Source: a virus. From it: a stretch of DNA of 39,224 nucleotides. The stretch covers positions 1-39,224 of IMG/VR virus record IMGVR_UViG_3300019776_000214. The stretch is one strand, 5' to 3'. Each line of letters begins with the position of its first letter. Position 1 is the first letter of the stretch. Shown here piece by piece: positions 4,154-12,979 of this stretch. The notes beneath the pieces were generated by a model. It made no database searches. It had not been told where the DNA came from and saw only the letters and a program-made list of their open reading frames with translations. Made by a program: the position numbers and the translations under genes.

Positions 4154-5422
4154 TTAAGCCCCGCCTTGTGTAGCTGCGATAACCGTACCAGCATCATCAA
4201 CCGTGATCGTAAATGAGTCTTCGTCAGGGTCAGTAATGTCAAGCAGCGTCACTGTGTCCTTGTCGTCACCAAGAACCTGCAATGGATTAACGCTTGGCGT
4301 TGGCTCGGTCTTGGCTTCTGGCGTGTAGTCCGTCAGGAACTTGAAGTAGTTATCTGCCGACTTATCGCTGTAGAAAACATACGTGAACGTGCCAATCAAG
4401 ATTTCGCCTGTCATCATTTCCTCAACCAGCTTGTACACACGGTCAACACCGTACTTATTAAGCAGACGATACACGTCAGAGCGACGAATAGAATTTAAAC
4501 CCACAGAATGCTGTGGATACTCCAGCTTAGCGCAGGCAATACATTCCATCACATAGTCACAGTCAGTCGATGTAACTAGCTTTACATCTTTGCGGTCATT
4601 CGCACTGAGTGGCGTAGTGATCGGTGTAATCGCGCTACGACGCTTGTTGTATGCAGCACGCTTGTTAGCCTTTGGCTTATCGTCGTTGAACATACGTTCA
4701 CGTTCAGCCCACGCATTAGCGAAACCGTCAAGAGTCTGCTGATCAGCCACGGCAGGTGTACTGCGTTTAACTGGCGCTGGTGGCGTGTACTTGTAGCCGC
4801 CATAGCTGTACTCAGGGACAGCCCCCGGATAGAGCAGACGGTCATGCGGTGTCCACGCATAGGTGTTAGAGAACCACACGCCATTCCAGTCAGTACCAGA
4901 TGAACGATTGATAATCTGAATATCACCTGCCGAGTTCACGAAACAGAACTTGTTGCCGCTACCGATGTGCGAACCGATTACCTCTGCGAACTCAGGTGTG
5001 AAGATCAACTCCTGCTTACCGCCTGTCAGTTTGTGAACGTAGTCACGCACATAGTGCCACGTGTCGGACTTAGTTTTGTCCTTATCGTTACCTGTGCGAA
5101 GCACACCGTTGTGCATCATCGCTACTGCGTGAGACGCTTGAGGCATGTCCTCGAAGTTATACACTGGGTATGGGTGGCAGTTGACCAAGTCAGTATCACC
5201 GTGAGTACGCATACGCAGGTGAAACGCCATTGGAATGTTCATCGCTTGCAAGCGCATGTAGAACTCAACCCACTGTTCTTTATTACCCAACTGTTTCTCT
5301 GTATGGAGAAGACCATCCTTCGCATACATGACACCGTAGCCGTCACGGTTCTTGTCCCAAAAACCTGCCACTTGAGCGGCTGTTAAGTTAGTGTCTTCTT
5401 TGATTACGAATAATAAGCACAT
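4154..5422 (-). CDS. Class II glutamine amidotransferase-like protein, 422 aa
   Basis: The protein starts MCLLFVIKE, so Cys2 becomes the N-terminal nucleophile once Met is removed, as in Ntn-type (class II) glutamine amidotransferases. Further family features follow in order: RDGYGVMY (26-33), HLRMRTHG (68-75), NCHPYPV (81-87) and MMHNGVL (102-108), which supply the glutamine-binding and oxyanion elements. The Ntn domain covers about residues 1-200. The C-terminal half is a Pro-rich linker and an unassigned helical domain (RRSDVYRLLNKYGVDRVYKL) with an acidic tail. The expected chemistry is release of ammonia from glutamine for transfer. The neighbouring amidoligase gene supports that role. 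An AAAGGA site precedes the ATG. Confidence 0.88.
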   Translation of the reverse strand: MCLLFVIKEDTNLTAAQVAGFWDKNRDGYGVMYAKDGLLHTEKQLGNKEQWVEFYMRLQAMNIPMAFHLRMRTHGDTDLVNCHPYPVYNFEDMPQASHAVAMMHNGVLRTGNDKDKTKSDTWHYVRDYVHKLTGGKQELIFTPEFAEVIGSHIGSGNKFCFVNSAGDIQIINRSSGTDWNGVWFSNTYAWTPHDRLLYPGAVPEYSYGGYKYTPPAPVKRSTPAVADQQTLDGFANAWAERERMFNDDKPKANKRAAYNKRRSAITPITTPLSANDRKDVKLVTSTDCDYVMECIACAKLEYPQHSVGLNSIRRSDVYRLLNKYGVDRVYKLVEEMMTGEILIGTFTYVFYSDKSADNYFKFLTDYTPEAKTEPTPSVNPLQVLGDDKDTVTLLDITDPDEDSFTITVDDAGTVIAATQGGA

Positions 5423-5463: not shown

Positions 5464-5482
5464 ACTTCGTTTTAGACGAAGT
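5464..5482 (-). other. Hairpin at the end of the amidoligase gene
   Basis: ACTTCGT and ACGAAGT form a perfect 7-bp stem with a 5-nt loop, starting at the TAA stop of the upstream gene. There is no U-run after it on the minus strand, so it is more likely a processing or stability element than a terminator. Confidence 0.4.
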
Positions 5483-7737
5483 TATGCATTTGAAGAATTG
5501 AAATCGTGTTCAACTACTTCGGTCACTCCCTCGCGGAAACGAGGCAGGTAAGTCACGTAACCACGCGCTGCAAGGTACGCACGAAGATGTGGCGTTTCGT
5601 GGCGACGGCATGGGTCAGCGATGTAACGTAAAAATTCGTCACTGGTGATCTTGTTCGCTGGCATATCACGTGTGAAGAACCATGACGCATGGGCGAACTC
5701 GATACACGCAAGGATAGTGTTAGGCAGCATGCTACCCTTGAAGATACGAATCTCTACTGTCTTCTCTGGCGTGAAGTTCACCGCTTGGTAGCGTTCACTC
5801 GACAGCGAACGAATAGCGCGGTTAATCAACGTCGCCTTACTAGACTTCGATGGAGTCTGTGAGAGACGGTAGCCCGTACCATCTAACGCGTTACGTGTCT
5901 GCGCTGGTACTCGCTCCTTCTCAAGATTACGTACCACCTTGGTATAGCTCACGTCATAGCGACGAGCGACAGAGTGAATCAGCCGTTTGTTCTCTGGCGA
6001 ATTGTAGAAACTCTGTAACTTGACAGCATGCGTCAGCGTCTTAGGCTTAGCCAGATGCACGTGTAACCCGCATGATGCGCTAGCGTCGTGGCTGCGTAAC
6101 TTACCGATGAACGGCAGCTTATCTTCACCATCGACCATACCAAAGATATTACGGATGAAGTGCTGGTGCATCGCCAACTCACCCCAACCAGATACCAACT
6201 CGAAGCCGTTCGATACGGAACCATCACGCTCGAAGTATCCATAGCGTTGCGTCGGGTTCATACCGACGAGTGCCTGCGCCTTGACCATGCGACTCAACAC
6301 TAGACGTGCTAGACGTGTGCGTTGATCTTCTTCGTTGATGTCGCCCTCAGCAGACTCCATCTCCAATTCAATACCCATAGTCAAGCCAGACGGTGCGTAT
6401 GGTACTGCCTCAGGTGGTAACTTAACCTCGCGGTTGAGCGCCTTGCTGCTGTGGTATGAACCAACAACAGGCGGCTCTCCTACAACGCGCATAGTGCCGT
6501 CACTCCAACGAATTAACGAACCATGTGTGCGGCTGTACAGAACGGTGTTACCTGCTGCATCAAGCCCACGACTATAAAGATCGCTAGCTGCGCATACTGA
6601 GCATACGTGCCGACGGCTGCTACCGTGGTACACCTCGACCTGACGACCCTCGCGTTCGTAGTGACCACACGCGTCGGGCATCATGATAGCTATGTGTTCT
6701 TCGCCAGCGTATTTGGAATTGAAACGATCAATCGCACAACCCAACTCGCGCTTGCAAGAGATGAAGTTAGACAACCAACTCATGCCATGTGAAGAAACAA
6801 TTTTCTTCTGTGCTAGCGTCATGTGCTTTGCAATGATCTTGCGAACAGCCATGTCTATCTCTGATGTGGTTTGGAGACGAATGATACTGTCGTCGCCCTT
6901 AACCATCATTGATATAAGTTGTGACTGAACCTTACCCTTTAGACGCCACAAATTTGCGCTGCCGAACGACTGGAACTCACTTTGAGTGTAGTTCCACTTC
7001 TTGCTGCCGAAACGAGGGTCTTTGTTCGGTGTGAGGTGGCTTTCACGTGTACGGCTGTAGCGTGTCAAGCGCAGGTCGAGGTCCAACGTAGCCCACTGCA
7101 TCGGTGTGATGACGTACGGATTGATGATACGAGCGTGGCGCTTAGACACAACGACACTCTTACGAACCACTTTACTGCGTGATTCTGGAGAACTGTGTCG
7201 TGTGCCGTCGATGACGATGGAGTTGCGGATAATAATCGCATGTGAACTTGTGCATAACTCATACGCAGGCATCAACACACGAACGTTTAGGTTATCGTCG
7301 CCAACGGACTCGATCATACCGATAAACGAATTGACTGGTCTGCCGCCATTTGATTTCGATTCCACCAACACGAGCATACTGTCGCGGTAGCGGATACCTG
7401 CCTTAACTGAACCATCAGCTTCGAGCGAAGGCATGATGAAGTTAGCAGGCATGTAGGAAACGAGCGATTCTGCCTTGCTCATTGAAATTTGTGCTGCGCT
7501 GATAGCGTCGCTAACGTGGGGGTTCGCTGTTATTTCGGCAGCGAGTGCCTTGATCATGCGACCACGTGATGAATCTAGTCTGACACCGCCACCAACTAAG
7601 GCAGAAAATACTTTACGGATAGCTTCTGTTACTAGGGTGAACTCGCAGCGTGTGGCATAGTCTGCGTGGTCACGATATTCTGGTGCGATTGGCGTGTTTA
7701 GGTCGTGCTCTACGCCTTGGATTGTTACTGTAGTCAT
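5482..7737 (-). CDS. Amidoligase-domain protein, 751 aa
   Basis: The C-terminal 300 residues carry the motifs of the COOH-NH2 ligase (Amidoligase_2) family of the glutamine-synthetase-like fold: GLTMGIELEME (451-461, metal-binding Glu residues), FERDGSV...GFELVSG (502-517), SCGLHVHL (555-562) and a late VNFTPEKTVEIRIFKGS block (653-669). Enzymes of this fold use ATP to couple a carboxylate to an amine or ammonia, forming an amide or peptide bond. The N-terminal 340 residues are unassigned. Between the two parts lies a likely zinc knuckle (CGHYE at 357, CSVC at 379-382). A neighbouring glutamine amidotransferase could supply ammonia. The start at 7737 follows a GGAG site; an RNA pseudoknot precedes it. 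The substrate is unknown. Confidence 0.87.
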   Translation of the reverse strand: MTTVTIQGVEHDLNTPIAPEYRDHADYATRCEFTLVTEAIRKVFSALVGGGVRLDSSRGRMIKALAAEITANPHVSDAISAAQISMSKAESLVSYMPANFIMPSLEADGSVKAGIRYRDSMLVLVESKSNGGRPVNSFIGMIESVGDDNLNVRVLMPAYELCTSSHAIIIRNSIVIDGTRHSSPESRSKVVRKSVVVSKRHARIINPYVITPMQWATLDLDLRLTRYSRTRESHLTPNKDPRFGSKKWNYTQSEFQSFGSANLWRLKGKVQSQLISMMVKGDDSIIRLQTTSEIDMAVRKIIAKHMTLAQKKIVSSHGMSWLSNFISCKRELGCAIDRFNSKYAGEEHIAIMMPDACGHYEREGRQVEVYHGSSRRHVCSVCAASDLYSRGLDAAGNTVLYSRTHGSLIRWSDGTMRVVGEPPVVGSYHSSKALNREVKLPPEAVPYAPSGLTMGIELEMESAEGDINEEDQRTRLARLVLSRMVKAQALVGMNPTQRYGYFERDGSVSNGFELVSGWGELAMHQHFIRNIFGMVDGEDKLPFIGKLRSHDASASCGLHVHLAKPKTLTHAVKLQSFYNSPENKRLIHSVARRYDVSYTKVVRNLEKERVPAQTRNALDGTGYRLSQTPSKSSKATLINRAIRSLSSERYQAVNFTPEKTVEIRIFKGSMLPNTILACIEFAHASWFFTRDMPANKITSDEFLRYIADPCRRHETPHLRAYLAARGYVTYLPRFREGVTEVVEHDFNSSNA

Positions 7738-9816: not shown

Positions 9817-9921
9817 TTAGGTTTGGGACTTATTCACGCACTCTGTGAAACTGTCCCCCGTTGTTTAGGCTGCTTTCGCTGCTCACTTCTTATTTACTGC
9901 ACTACCTAACCAACAGACTAT

Positions 9922-9950
9922 ATTATCTCATAAGATTACACGTATGTCAA
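9922..9950 (-). promoter_or_regulatory. Sigma70-like promoter of the leftward early operon
   Basis: On the minus strand, a perfect TTGACA (9950-9945) and GATAAT (9927-9922, 5 of 6) are separated by 17 bp. Transcription would start near 9915 and read through the small genes to the left edge. The spacer and flanks are nearly the same as those of the promoter at 12194-12222. Confidence 0.8.
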
Positions 9951-9951
9951 T

Positions 9952-9962
9952 TAGGTTACATG
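9952..9962. promoter_or_regulatory. TAGGTTACATG element next to the early promoter
   Basis: This 11-mer lies directly upstream of the -35 box of the early promoter. Exact copies occur at 12224-12234, in the same position at another promoter, and at 3366-3376. It is a candidate operator or activator site. Confidence 0.4.
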
Positions 9963-9967
9963 ATTGT

Positions 9968-10576
9968 TTACGCAGTAATGTCCACAGCTTGAACTACTGT
10001 TTTCTCCGTAATCGGCATGGATTCATCAAACGGCACAGCAACCCCGTTTTCAACCACAGTGATCATTCCGTAATGGAGCATGAAGGATGCATAACGCAAC
10101 ACAGAGAGCGCAGACATTCCGAGGGCTGATCTGAGATCGGCTAGCTGCGTGGGACGTGTCACTGCTGATTTAATGCTAGCTGTGCGTTCCTTGGTGGACT
10201 TGGTGTTGGGGTTAATCAGATACGCACCATACTTCATTCGCGCAGTTGTTAAACGAACTGGCACGTAATCAGGCTGCGGGTGCGTGAACTCGATATGCGC
10301 CAGATCACCAGCACGTGTTCGACGGATGAACATATTGCGACTTAATCGATCATCGTGATACTGCTCGATTGTTTGACCTGTTGTTGGGTCATATATTTCT
10401 AACAACCCAGTGCTAATCATTCGTTTGACTAATCGACGTGCTTGTTGATATGGCATCTTAGGATTAGTTAAAAGTGCTGTGACTTTTGTATGGGTAATCC
10501 CGCATGTCTCCAGCATGAACTTCACCAGCTTGCGATTTAGCGTAGCTGGCACTGTTTGTGTTCGTTCTAAGGTCAT
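9968..10576 (-). CDS. Putative double winged-helix DNA-binding protein, 202 aa
   Basis: Residues about 14-60 (RKLVKFMLETCGITHTKVTA, then a helix QQARRLVKRMISTGLLEIYD) fit a winged helix with a strand-turn-strand wing. A second HTH-like segment at about 142-180 (PTQLADLRSALGMSALSVLR, then MLHYGMITVVENG) has the same helix-then-wing pattern. Two winged helices in one small protein recall both transcription regulators and iteron-binding Rep proteins. The gene starts 85 bp from the first iteron and has its own promoter inside that region, so it is the best local candidate for the iteron-binding protein. That is inference. The leader carries AAAGGA before the ATG. Confidence 0.7.
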   Translation of the reverse strand: MTLERTQTVPATLNRKLVKFMLETCGITHTKVTALLTNPKMPYQQARRLVKRMISTGLLEIYDPTTGQTIEQYHDDRLSRNMFIRRTRAGDLAHIEFTHPQPDYVPVRLTTARMKYGAYLINPNTKSTKERTASIKSAVTRPTQLADLRSALGMSALSVLRYASFMLHYGMITVVENGVAVPFDESMPITEKTVVQAVDITA

Positions 10577-10607
10577 GATTATTCCTTTATGTAAGTTAAT
10601 GAACCTA

Positions 10608-10621
10608 CATGTTATTACATG
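10608..10621. promoter_or_regulatory. Inverted repeat CATGT-N4-ACATG overlapping a -10 box
   Basis: CATGT TATT ACATG is a perfect dyad covering the -10 hexamer of the promoter for the 202-aa DNA-binding protein. It is well placed for autoregulation. Confidence 0.45.
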
Positions 10622-10637
10622 ATAGTGTTTTAGTCAA
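10609..10637 (-). promoter_or_regulatory. Sigma70-like promoter of the winged-helix gene
   Basis: On the minus strand TTGACT (10637-10632) and TAACAT (10614-10609, 4 of 6) are 17 bp apart. The start would be near 10602, giving a leader of about 25 nt. Confidence 0.55.
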
Positions 10638-10946
10638 TGATATATAGACTGCGTTATCTGAACTTGTAGAAAGACGACGCTAATTTGACGAAAGTTGTTA
10701 GATTATTATGCTGCGTTGTATAACGAGTGGCGAAACTTGTAGAAAGACGACGCGATAGTAAAATGACAAAACTGTAGAAAGACGACGCAAATCGGATAAA
10801 ACCTGTATAAACAGTTCAATAAGTTGTAGAAAGACGACCATACGCCCGAAAAAAATGAACGACCCCGCCAAAAAGAAAATTTAGCTGATTTAGCCTTGCT
10901 AGCTGTGTTTTCGGAAATCGCGTCACGATTATACATAGGGGGTCGC

Positions 10947-10960
10947 GTACGGGGGGGTAC
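10947..10960. other. GTAC-flanked G-run
   Basis: GTAC, six G and GTAC stand between the direct and inverted iterons, close to another run of five G (10938-10942). This is the only strongly G-skewed patch in the iteron region; its role is unknown. Confidence 0.3.
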
Positions 10961-10990
10961 ACATTCAAAAACATAGTTGCGTCGTCTTTC

Positions 10991-11024
10991 TATAATATAT
11001 TATCTTAATTAAATAATTTATATA
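10991..11024. other. AT-rich tract within the iteron region
   Basis: Thirty-four bases contain only A and T apart from one C at 11004. The tract adjoins an inverted iteron. In origin regions such tracts serve as the DNA-unwinding element; the same sequence could also hold a promoter. Confidence 0.5.
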
Positions 11025-11274
11025 GGTAAAACCCCATATGAACTCATGCCAGTTTCTTGTAGAAAGACGACGCATTTTCGCAGTTAGCCTATATAAACGC
11101 TATCAAAACCTGTAGAAAGACGACCATAAAAAGCTCGCGTCACCTTTATACAGAAAACGCAAACCGTTCTATTTCGCTTAGTCGTCTTTCTATAAGTTCG
11201 TGAAACCGTTTTATCATTTCCCGCACTGATTACACATTTCACGCAGCCACCAGTCATTAGTTCACCAGTGACAC

Positions 11275-11304
11275 TTTGCTAGCCCAGTTCACGCAGCTAG
11301 CAAA
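11275..11304. repeat. Inverted repeat TTTGCTAG / CTAGCAAA
   Basis: Two perfect 8-bp arms with a 14-nt spacer lie between the last iteron and the terminator of the Ala/Lys-rich gene. It may be a protein-binding dyad. The rest of 11197-11363 shows nothing else. Confidence 0.35.
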
Positions 11305-11363
11305 ACCAAAGGGACAACATCATGCACTCTGTGAGCTTGTCTCGATGCCAAAAACACGGACGC

Positions 11364-11387
11364 AAAAAAGCCCGCACTAGGCGGGCT
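11364..11387 (-). terminator. Intrinsic terminator of the Ala/Lys-rich gene
   Basis: On the minus strand AGCCCGC and GCGGGCT form a 7-bp GC-rich stem with a 5-nt loop, followed by six T. It lies 26 bp after the stop codon at 11414 and would keep transcription of that gene out of the iteron region. Confidence 0.9.
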
Positions 11388-11413
11388 AAGTAAATCAATT
11401 GCTTTGTATTGGC

Positions 11414-12136
11414 TTACATCAATGCGGGCGTTGTAAGCGCGTCAAACGGGCTAGCCTTAGACTTTGTTACCTTAGGCGCTTTGCTAGCTTTGCTAGCTGT
11501 TTTGACGGGTTCAACGGCAGGCACGTTACCAACGATAATTTCGTACGCTTTTTTCAGTGCAGCCAAATCAGTGCATTCCGTAATTGCTTTACGGATTTTA
11601 TCGCGTTGAACTGTCAATGCTTCACGCGCAGCTTTTTGCGCAACAGTCTCTGCTGATTTTTGCAGTTCAGTTGCGACTGCTTGATATGCAATAGCTTTTT
11701 GTACATCACCACTTTCGAGCGCCTTAGTAGCCTTGCTAACTGCGTCTGCAACGTTATGGCATTCTGCTTTAAGGCTAGCTTTTGATGTTGCTTGTTTAGC
11801 GCGGCTAGCTGCTTTTTTCGCTGCTGCTGCTGTAGGCTTAGCAGGCTTTTCCAATGCGAAACTATTTTTCATTGCCACGGCAACAGAGGAAAAGCGATTA
11901 GTCGCAGTCGACTCAGTGCAACCGCGTTCTTTCATGTACGCAGAGATAAATGCATCTTGCACTGTAACCCAATGATCATAGGAAGGTTTTTCGCCAAGTA
12001 TCTTTGCAACAGCAGACGCAGCAGTAGGCAAAGCGGACTCAAATGCTTTATCTGCTTTAGCCAAGTTAACAGCAGGCGCAGCGATAGAAGCGATAACAGC
12101 AGCGGACGCAGCAGCAGAGTGAGTAACGTTTTTCAT
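11414..12136 (-). CDS. Ala/Lys-rich protein with histone-H1-like tail, 240 aa
   Basis: I place the start at 12136 (MKNVTHSAAASAAVIASIAA) because an AAAGGA site and the shared leader motif lie just upstream; the longer frame to 12217 covers the promoter. A globular part at about residues 50-95 (YDHWVTVQDAFISAYMKERG, then STATNRFSSVAVAMKN) is followed by Ala/Lys-rich stretches (PTAAAAKKAASRAKQATSKA) and a helical region. The tail KTASKASKAPKVTKSKASPF resembles histone H1 C-terminal tails. A DNA- or RNA-associated protein is likely. It is a monocistronic unit with its own promoter and terminator, which suggests high expression. The precise function is unknown. Confidence 0.75.
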   Translation of the reverse strand: MKNVTHSAAASAAVIASIAAPAVNLAKADKAFESALPTAASAVAKILGEKPSYDHWVTVQDAFISAYMKERGCTESTATNRFSSVAVAMKNSFALEKPAKPTAAAAKKAASRAKQATSKASLKAECHNVADAVSKATKALESGDVQKAIAYQAVATELQKSAETVAQKAAREALTVQRDKIRKAITECTDLAALKKAYEIIVGNVPAVEPVKTASKASKAPKVTKSKASPFDALTTPALM

Positions 12137-12152
12137 GATGTAATTTCCTTTG

Positions 12153-12166
12153 AGTAAGATAAGTAA
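12153..12166 (-). promoter_or_regulatory. Shared 14-nt leader motif, Ala/Lys-rich gene
   Basis: TTACTTATCTTACT in the transcript, 16 nt before the ATG at 12136, is an exact copy of the motif at 7751-7764. Confidence 0.5.
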
Positions 12167-12193
12167 CACTGCATCACATGACACAGTAACTAC

Positions 12194-12222
12194 ATTATGC
12201 CATAAGGTTACACGCAAGTCAA
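12194..12222 (-). promoter_or_regulatory. Sigma70-like promoter of the Ala/Lys-rich gene
   Basis: On the minus strand TTGACT (12222-12217) and CATAAT (12199-12194, 5 of 6) are separated by 17 bp. The predicted start is near 12187, with a leader of about 50 nt. A TAGGTTACATG element lies at 12224-12234, directly upstream, as at the early operon promoter. Confidence 0.8.
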
Positions 12223-12433
12223 ATAGGTTACATGTGACAATCTCACAAGCGGCGTGAAGATGTCCACGAAGAAGCGGAACGACACCTTGAACTGGACTAG
12301 CTGCGTGGAGGGGGTATGGGACAAAAACATTTGCACCCCTCCCCCTCTGCTTAGATAGTCCAACACACCGCTAGCCAATTTTTCAAAGTCAATGTAACAC
12401 CTAGTACACGCGTATCACCTCTCAAACAAGGCA

Positions 12434-12462
12434 TTGACGCCCACCTCCCAAAATGATATAAG
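12434..12462 (+). promoter_or_regulatory. Sigma70-like late promoter before the terminase genes
   Basis: TTGACG (12434-12439) and TATAAG (12457-12462) each match the consensus at five of six positions and have a 17-bp spacer. Transcription would begin near 12469, about 22 nt before the ATG of the small terminase gene. A TTG at 12434 in the same frame would lie inside the -35 box, so it is unlikely to be the start codon. Confidence 0.7.
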
Positions 12463-12490
12463 TCAGCAAAACTTCGCTAGCTTACACACC

Positions 12491-12979
12491 ATGTCCAACA
12501 ACGTTCAAACAATTGACTTGAACCTTGAGGCGCTCTTAACTGATGCCGCCTTGGATATTTACACCCTCATGGATTTGGCTGCGTTGCACAATGTAACTCA
12601 GCAAGCCGCACGAGAGTTACTTGAACTGCCAGATAACCAGCACCGTGTCGCCAAGATACGTAAGGAACTCAACGACGCAGGGAAAGATATTGAAAAGCGT
12701 GCCTCCTACAGCATCGCTAACGTTGTCATTCCAGAGCTAGTTAAAGCCTCACAACAGGTCGATACCACGCCAGACGAGCTAGTCAAGATCGGTACGCTGC
12801 TCCATAAATTCACAGGGGTTGATCGTAAGAGTGCCGAGAAGACCGTGCAGAAACAACTGCCGAGTATCAATATTTTCTTGGGTGACGACGACAAGCCTAC
12901 GACACTGCGTGTGGTCAATTCAGAGGCGTTGAAGATCAACAGCGATATAGACGACGTACCGTACACCGAGGAAGCGTAA
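12491..12979 (+). CDS. terS: Terminase small subunit (putative), 162 aa
   Basis: The protein MSNNVQTIDLNLEALLTDAA has an N-terminal helical, possibly HTH-type, DNA-recognition region (YTLMDLAALHNVTQQAAREL), a central helical oligomerisation region (IRKELNDAGKDIEKRASYSI) and an acidic C-terminus. Small terminases bind the packaging site and hand the DNA to the large subunit. The call rests mainly on position: it is the first late gene, and its TAA overlaps the ATG of the large terminase. The ATG at 12491 has no clear ribosome site, and the leader from the predicted promoter is only about 22 nt. Confidence 0.7.
   Translation: MSNNVQTIDLNLEALLTDAALDIYTLMDLAALHNVTQQAARELLELPDNQHRVAKIRKELNDAGKDIEKRASYSIANVVIPELVKASQQVDTTPDELVKIGTLLHKFTGVDRKSAEKTVQKQLPSINIFLGDDDKPTTLRVVNSEALKINSDIDDVPYTEEA

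Follow-up and report, generated by a model that had tools for sequence, protein, structure and literature searches.

We identified a candidate replication origin in region 10665-11194 of the window, which is the whole of a linear IMG/VR record of 39,224 bp; we put the probability of this reading at about three in four, its function being one that we infer. The original prediction had proposed that an iteron cluster with an AT-rich tract forms a phage origin here, and four observations supported it: the repeat core is unique to the region, the tract is the duplex minimum of the record, iterons flank it, and an AT-minimum occupies the same map position in relatives. It is further favored because all nine longer relatives encode a primase-helicase resembling SaPI Rep and Cch; initiators of this type act at iteron origins. 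The outcome is a predicted origin together with a predicted initiator for a phage group whose replication, like this origin, we did not find described in the literature.

The virus of the window is podophage-like, as the record encodes portal-like head-tail adaptor, major head, internal virion and terminase proteins. Its longer TerL relatives span 45-68 kb, and therefore about one third of the genome, some 20-30 kb with replication genes included, is probably missing from the window. The putative origin separates the leftward early genes from rightward genes for packaging and structure, and most genes are thus directed away from it. The intervening region, earlier described as gene-free over 837 bp, indeed measured 837 bp (Table 1). 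The sole ORF inside it, of 76 aa on the minus strand, overlaps the repeats, and no credible ORF was present; Rfam and tRNA scans gave no matches.

Exact matching recovered all eight predicted copies of the core at their positions, six direct and two inverted. These TAGAAAGACGAC copies, six of them TG-prefixed and two TA-prefixed, span 530 bp of the gap. When the 12-mer was counted across the record, 8 occurrences were obtained, every one in the gap, against 0 for the reversed control pattern; an equal frequency elsewhere in the record was not seen. The best 10-mer count per 700 bp was 8 at the gap and at most 3 in shuffles, and for the 8-mer AGAAAGAC a Poisson P of ~6e-18 was obtained with a first-order Markov model of the gap as background. 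In the register alignment, 12/12 core columns were identical in 8/8 copies and the flanks dropped at once to background. Such sharp edges of conservation have the look of protein-binding sites, unlike a decayed tandem array.

Table 1. Features of the putative origin and its surroundings in the window, followed by the cluster motifs of relatives.
Feature	Position	Strand	Sequence	Remark
Gene of 202-aa protein	9968..10576	-		neighbor of putative origin; no homologue found
Gene-free interval	10577..11413	.		837 bp, putative origin inside; GC ~0.40 vs 0.49 elsewhere
Weak sigma-70-like promoter match	10609..10637	-		9/12; upstream of 202-aa gene
Iteron 1	10665..10678	+	TGTAGAAAGACGAC	exact copy, then GC
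Iteron 2	10738..10751	+	TGTAGAAAGACGAC	exact copy, then GC
Iteron 3	10773..10786	+	TGTAGAAAGACGAC	exact copy, then GC
Paired-iteron unit	10773..10842	+	CCTGTATAAAC	iteron-GC, sequence given, iteron-CATA; repeat family
Iteron 4	10825..10838	+	TGTAGAAAGACGAC	exact copy, then CATA
Minor repeat, copy one	10919..10936	-	TGTATAATCGTGACGCGA	18-bp element TGTATAANNGTGACGCGA
Iteron 5, inverted	10981..10994	-	TATAGAAAGACGAC	exact copy, abutting A/T tract
A/T tract	10991..11024	.		34 bp, one C; candidate DNA-unwinding element
Iteron 6	11058..11071	+	TGTAGAAAGACGAC	exact copy, then GC
Second paired-iteron unit	11058-11128	+	CCTATATAAAC	repeat family
Iteron 7	11111..11124	+	TGTAGAAAGACGAC	exact copy, then CATA
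Minor repeat, second copy	11135-11152	-	TGTATAAAGGTGACGCGA	18-bp element TGTATAANNGTGACGCGA
Iteron 8, inverted	11181..11194	-	TATAGAAAGACGAC	exact copy
Intrinsic-terminator-like hairpin	11369..11387	-		end of 240-aa gene, right edge of gap
Gene of 240-aa Ala/Lys-rich protein	11414..12136	-		homologues beside same gap in L033, L034, L271
Cluster motif, L046			TGTGTTCTAT	
Cluster motif, L036/L043			TTGACAGTTG	
Cluster motif, L079			ATTTCTGACA	
Cluster motif, L053			GCAAGTGAAG	
Main cluster motif, L044			CTTTACTTTCATT	test window picked AAGAGTAGAA
Cluster motif, L041			GTGTAACATG	palindromic sites
Cluster motif, L035			TCTATACCAC	
Cluster motif, L056			TGTAATGCGG	
Cluster motif, L057-L059			TCTTAGATTA	
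Cluster motif, L268			ATTACTAGAT	
Cluster motif, L034			GCTAGCCCCG	

Some of the iterons are arranged in a paired unit that occurs twice (iteron-GC, ~15 bp, CCTRTATAAAC, ~12 bp, iteron-CATA). The earlier suggestion that spacings fall near whole helical turns was not supported, as the phasing of the intervals 73, 35, 52, 233 and 53 was not significant (Rayleigh p ~0.14). The minus-strand repeats at 10936 and 11152 were considered as degenerate cores and rejected; they are a genuine 16/18 pair, and their likeness to the core is at background level only. Exact searches for the iteron pair in viral and genome contig collections returned 0 matches, and the core was absent from 18 relatives with one mismatch allowed.

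The AT tract beside an inverted copy was confirmed. It is the least stable duplex of the record at 34, 50, 100 and 200 bp as calculated from nearest-neighbor energies, with iterons 5 and 6 on either side of the record-wide minimum (10990), so that five iterons flank the tract on the left and three on the right. Neither TTWTNCACA nor a one-mismatch TTATCCACA was found as a DnaA box at 10,001-12,500, and no match to an IHF site was obtained in the gap. The terminator that had been predicted to bound the region on the right was found as a terminator-like hairpin. As for the DNA-binding-protein gene predicted on the left, the gene is present and DNA binding by its 202-aa product is plausible, with no family match and no related protein returned by searches for one; structure prediction gave a low-confidence model, possibly of two winged-helix-like units, for which Foldseek returned no match at E <= 0.001. 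The protein is a weak candidate for the initiator because it is not conserved beside other clusters.

The main rival to an origin, less likely than it and in our judgement improbable, is a multi-site operator or enhancer, where a regulator such as the 202-aa protein would act on the eight sites and thereby govern the early operon running leftward from 10576, and the AT richness would be a promoter property. The cluster does lie upstream of the 202-aa gene, whose predicted product resembles two winged-helix units; a gene that by eye appears ribbon-helix-helix-like follows the gap on the same side in the relatives L053 and L057, and the sites of L041 and of Pseudomonas phage Rollin are palindromic. 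On the other hand, the sites of the window are spread over 530 bp, sigma-70-like promoter matches in the gap region occur only at the rate of chance, and none of the other early promoters contains the core; what they have in common is a different motif, GTAACCT. Moreover, no DNA-binding gene stands beside the cluster in L046 or L036, and an operator would leave unexplained why the locus-wide stability minimum is always at the gap.

Several observations were made on the genes and promoters around the gap. Nearly identical early promoter regions were seen on the minus strand at 9896-9962 and 12168-12234 (76% over 67 nt), with the shared pattern CATGTAACCTA-TTGAC..GCGTGTAA.CTTATG..ATAAT. GTAACCT-like repeats around the -35 box of both suggest a shared regulator site, and similar GTGTAAC motifs were present in the gap of L041. 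A small leftward gene stands to the right of the gap in the window (11414-12136) and in L046, L079, L053, L044, L041 and L036; its products look unrelated in sequence in several of these phages. A 422-aa protein (4154-5422) and a 751-aa protein (5482-7737) are encoded by a neighboring pair of minus-strand genes; the G001 counterpart of the former matches class-II glutamine amidotransferase, and the latter has a weak amidoligase match. Relatives of the two adjoin each other in L036.

Sequence comparison with relatives gathered by TerL suggests that the iterons change fast between these phages, and that their position and the melting site persist. The weakest duplex of the locus was located 1.8-7.2 kb upstream of TerL in 24/24 TerL-relative loci, some of which end near the minimum and count for less. 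Clustering was scored in 800 bp around the minimum, where the repeats had to beat 30/30 dinucleotide shuffles. A cluster was found at the weakest duplex in 12 of ~18 evaluable loci, with identical or overlapping contigs counted once and L057 positive in just the version that scores exact 8-mers. Each cluster has its own sequence (Table 1), and its motif was rare or absent in the remainder of the same locus. More distant control loci were positive in 4/31 cases (Fisher p ~3e-4 versus 12/~18). Iterons lay on both sides of the AT-minimum in 8 of the 11 records counted, and the remaining parts of G002-G004 contained no low-GC non-coding cluster.

About 6 of the 18 evaluable loci gave no detectable repeats. 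The closest relative by TerL (L033/G001, 72% identity) has kept the AT-minimum; there, no cluster of 10-bp words was obtained, only a short CTAATA/ATTAGA excess. GC skew, proposed earlier as a check, was compatible in part: the cumulative minimum fell within ~4 kb of the cluster in 7/12 genomes and not near it in G005, G006 and G024, a signal confounded by gene orientation. In L271, the syntenic gap (~5,800-6,400) held no iterons; nearly identical arms of ~29 bp (TTGACGG..GTTTTTCTGTTGTGGGCCT) were seen there in inverted orientation, ~500 bp apart, with the AT-minimum of the locus nearby. Because the repeat sets of the relatives hold their position and change their sequence, sites of this type escape searches for phage origins by sequence, and the sets offer a natural series for the evolution of specificity between initiator and origin.

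The position of the cluster also bears on packaging. Recognition by the small terminase subunit at a pac or cos site, upstream of the terminase genes, is a very improbable explanation of the repeats. In the window, the gene before TerL is likely TerS and has the cluster 1.2-1.8 kb upstream. However, at a distance of at least 1.2 kb the cluster is neither within nor adjoining that gene, and in Rollin ~6 kb separate the cluster from the gene before TerL, with a tail-fiber gene between; this last distance is what disfavors a pac site. The cluster is also ~4 kb from TerL in L053 and ~7 kb in L034, and a hypervariable site at an AT-minimum is not expected of pac.

The slimmest chance was given to a partition centromere of the parS/parC type, which would serve an extrachromosomal prophage state. 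The layout of the window, with its iterated sites beside the gene of a small DNA-binding protein, resembles that of parC/parS. However, a ParA-type ATPase (PF13614) was found in 0/14 relatives, in a search whose control was positive in 14/14 reference genomes, which disfavors a partition site as far as the relatives go, the window fragment itself being incomplete. Furthermore, an integrase was found in just 4/14 relatives.

For an origin, the candidate initiator came from the relatives. A PrimPol-DUF927 primase-helicase of ~1,000 aa is encoded in 9/9 TerL relatives of at least 45 kb (G001-G006, G012, Rhizobium phage RHph_TM3_14A and Rollin), and Pfam found DUF927 in 5/5 of the helicases tested. 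The helicase profile matched Cch of SCCmec (5dgk, E 8e-10) and SaPI Rep (8tch, 7e-8), and a profile built with more sequences matched the PrimPol AEP domain (6zp9, 0.004). The best PDB matches of an AlphaFold (AF2) model with a mean pLDDT of 68 were SaPIBov1 Rep, cyanophage S-2L PrimPol and the primase RepB'. The C-terminus (918-1000) was predicted to be a compact beta-beta-alpha-alpha-beta unit. Its mean identity of 31%, compared with 46-48% for the primase and AAA+ domains, was the lowest apart from the tail, and this low conservation fits the expectation for a domain of origin specificity. SaPI Rep recognizes its iterons via the C-terminal domain (PMC7581432), and C-terminal winged helices of primase-helicase fusions were suggested by Kazlauskas et al. 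to serve in origin recognition (PMC5862659). G001 elsewhere encodes a family-A DNA polymerase, an SNF2-type helicase and a DUF927 protein of 1,076 aa. Despite its annotation as 'putative integrase', the product of EVB41_076 in a Rhizobium phage (MN988472.1 42239-45322; L112:15640-18723) is a DUF927 primase-helicase (E 1.2e-20).

No initiator gene was found in the 39-kb window record, and the pairing of origin and initiator is therefore made by analogy with the relatives. By this analogy the helicase of the window phage would lie in the part of the genome outside the record, and so we infer both its binding and the origin activity. Six phages with distant helicases (G024, G025, G026, G029, G030 and G031) have a cluster beside the stability minimum, whereas the helicase-positive G023 and G028 have no clear cluster; the helicase-free relatives G009, G010 and G011 have no cluster of at least five copies. 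GTGTAAAG occurs in both G026 and G031, with 75% identity between their helicases; G025 (helicase 44-45%) has only TGTAAAG in common with these two, and nothing obvious is common to G004 and G006 (helicases 54%). An origin beside the helicase gene, as in SaPIs, was also sought in ~55 loci of the wider family and rejected, as no cluster was found at the stability minimum near the gene except for a tandem array in L160.

According to the proposed mechanism, a phage-encoded initiator would bind the iterons as a multimer, whose strain would open the A/T tract (10991-11024); forks would depart there, one toward the leftward early genes and the other toward the rightward late genes. In the likely initiator, a primase of the archaeo-eukaryotic (PrimPol) type would be fused to a DUF927 AAA+ helicase like SaPIbov1-Rep and Cch, and a DNA-binding domain resembling a winged helix would form the C-terminus. 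This C-terminus would recognize the iterons, and the protein would then self-load on the melted tract, unwind the duplex and make primers on both strands with no need for DnaA, DnaB or DnaG. More tentatively, and with rather more doubt than belief, we suggest that a large and mostly uncultivated podophage-like group shares an origin fixed in position between early and late genes and served by a distant, fused PrimPol/SaPI-Rep-like self-loading helicase. Its iterons would be replaced wholesale even at ~50% helicase identity, in a manner suggestive of diversifying selection on origin specificity by satellites, super-infecting phages or origin-recognizing defenses.

The candidate origin shares features with several known types and differs from each. 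The origins of iteron plasmids (P1 oriR, R6K, RK2) have direct repeats, spaced ~21-22 bp, beside an AT-rich unwinding element, and DnaA boxes are common in iteron origins though not universal. In the window, near-identical non-coding repeats (8 exact) likewise adjoin an AT-rich element; in contrast, DnaA boxes are absent, the spacing is irregular (35-233 bp) and no Rep homologue is adjacent. The lambda ori also places phage iterons beside an AT-rich element, but inside the initiator gene, and O recruits host DnaB, whereas the sites of the window occupy a gap free of genes, with a helicase as the candidate initiator.

A close likeness in layout and initiator was seen with the SaPI and PICI origins (SaPIbov1, SaPI1, E. 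coli PICIs). SaPI iterons are short, ~6 bp, and those of the window are longer, at 14 bp. The SaPI origin lies directly 3′ of rep, whereas 13-25 kb separate cluster and helicase gene in the relatives (G001, G025, G030 and Rollin); moreover, the carrier here is a whole tailed phage, and the candidate initiator joins primase and helicase in one protein. Nevertheless, the iteron sets of the window, five left and three right, flank an AT-rich region, and the modeled helicase of the relatives has SaPIBov1 Rep as its best structural match. An AT-rich region flanked by two iteron sets has been described for PICI origins (PMC6092414). With the helicase gene so far off and the iterons longer, the site would, by analogy, function as PICI origins do, yet its position sets it apart from them. 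The relatives' DUF927 helicase is also homologous to Cch of SCCmec, and for Cch2 a putative direct-repeat origin is bound by the C-terminal domain (PMC7581432). That origin differs in having only three 5-nt iterons, beside the cch2 operon, and in belonging to a mobile island and not to a phage. The relatives thereby link initiator helicases of the SaPI/SCC type to full tailed phages, with the origin away from the initiator gene.

An isolate in which the predicted origin and initiator can be tested is Pseudomonas phage Rollin (OR577172), a distant relative with 35% TerL identity whose layout matches that of the window. Four palindromes of 25 bp that match AAAAGGTAGCAAGTTACTACCTTTT exactly or closely were found at positions 1-500 along with a half copy, and this cluster adjoins the genome-wide stability minimum at ~530. 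Positions 987-1086 read N in the copy examined, the part at 51.8-61.3 kb has no annotated genes, and the record OR577172.1 itself begins within the repeat cluster.
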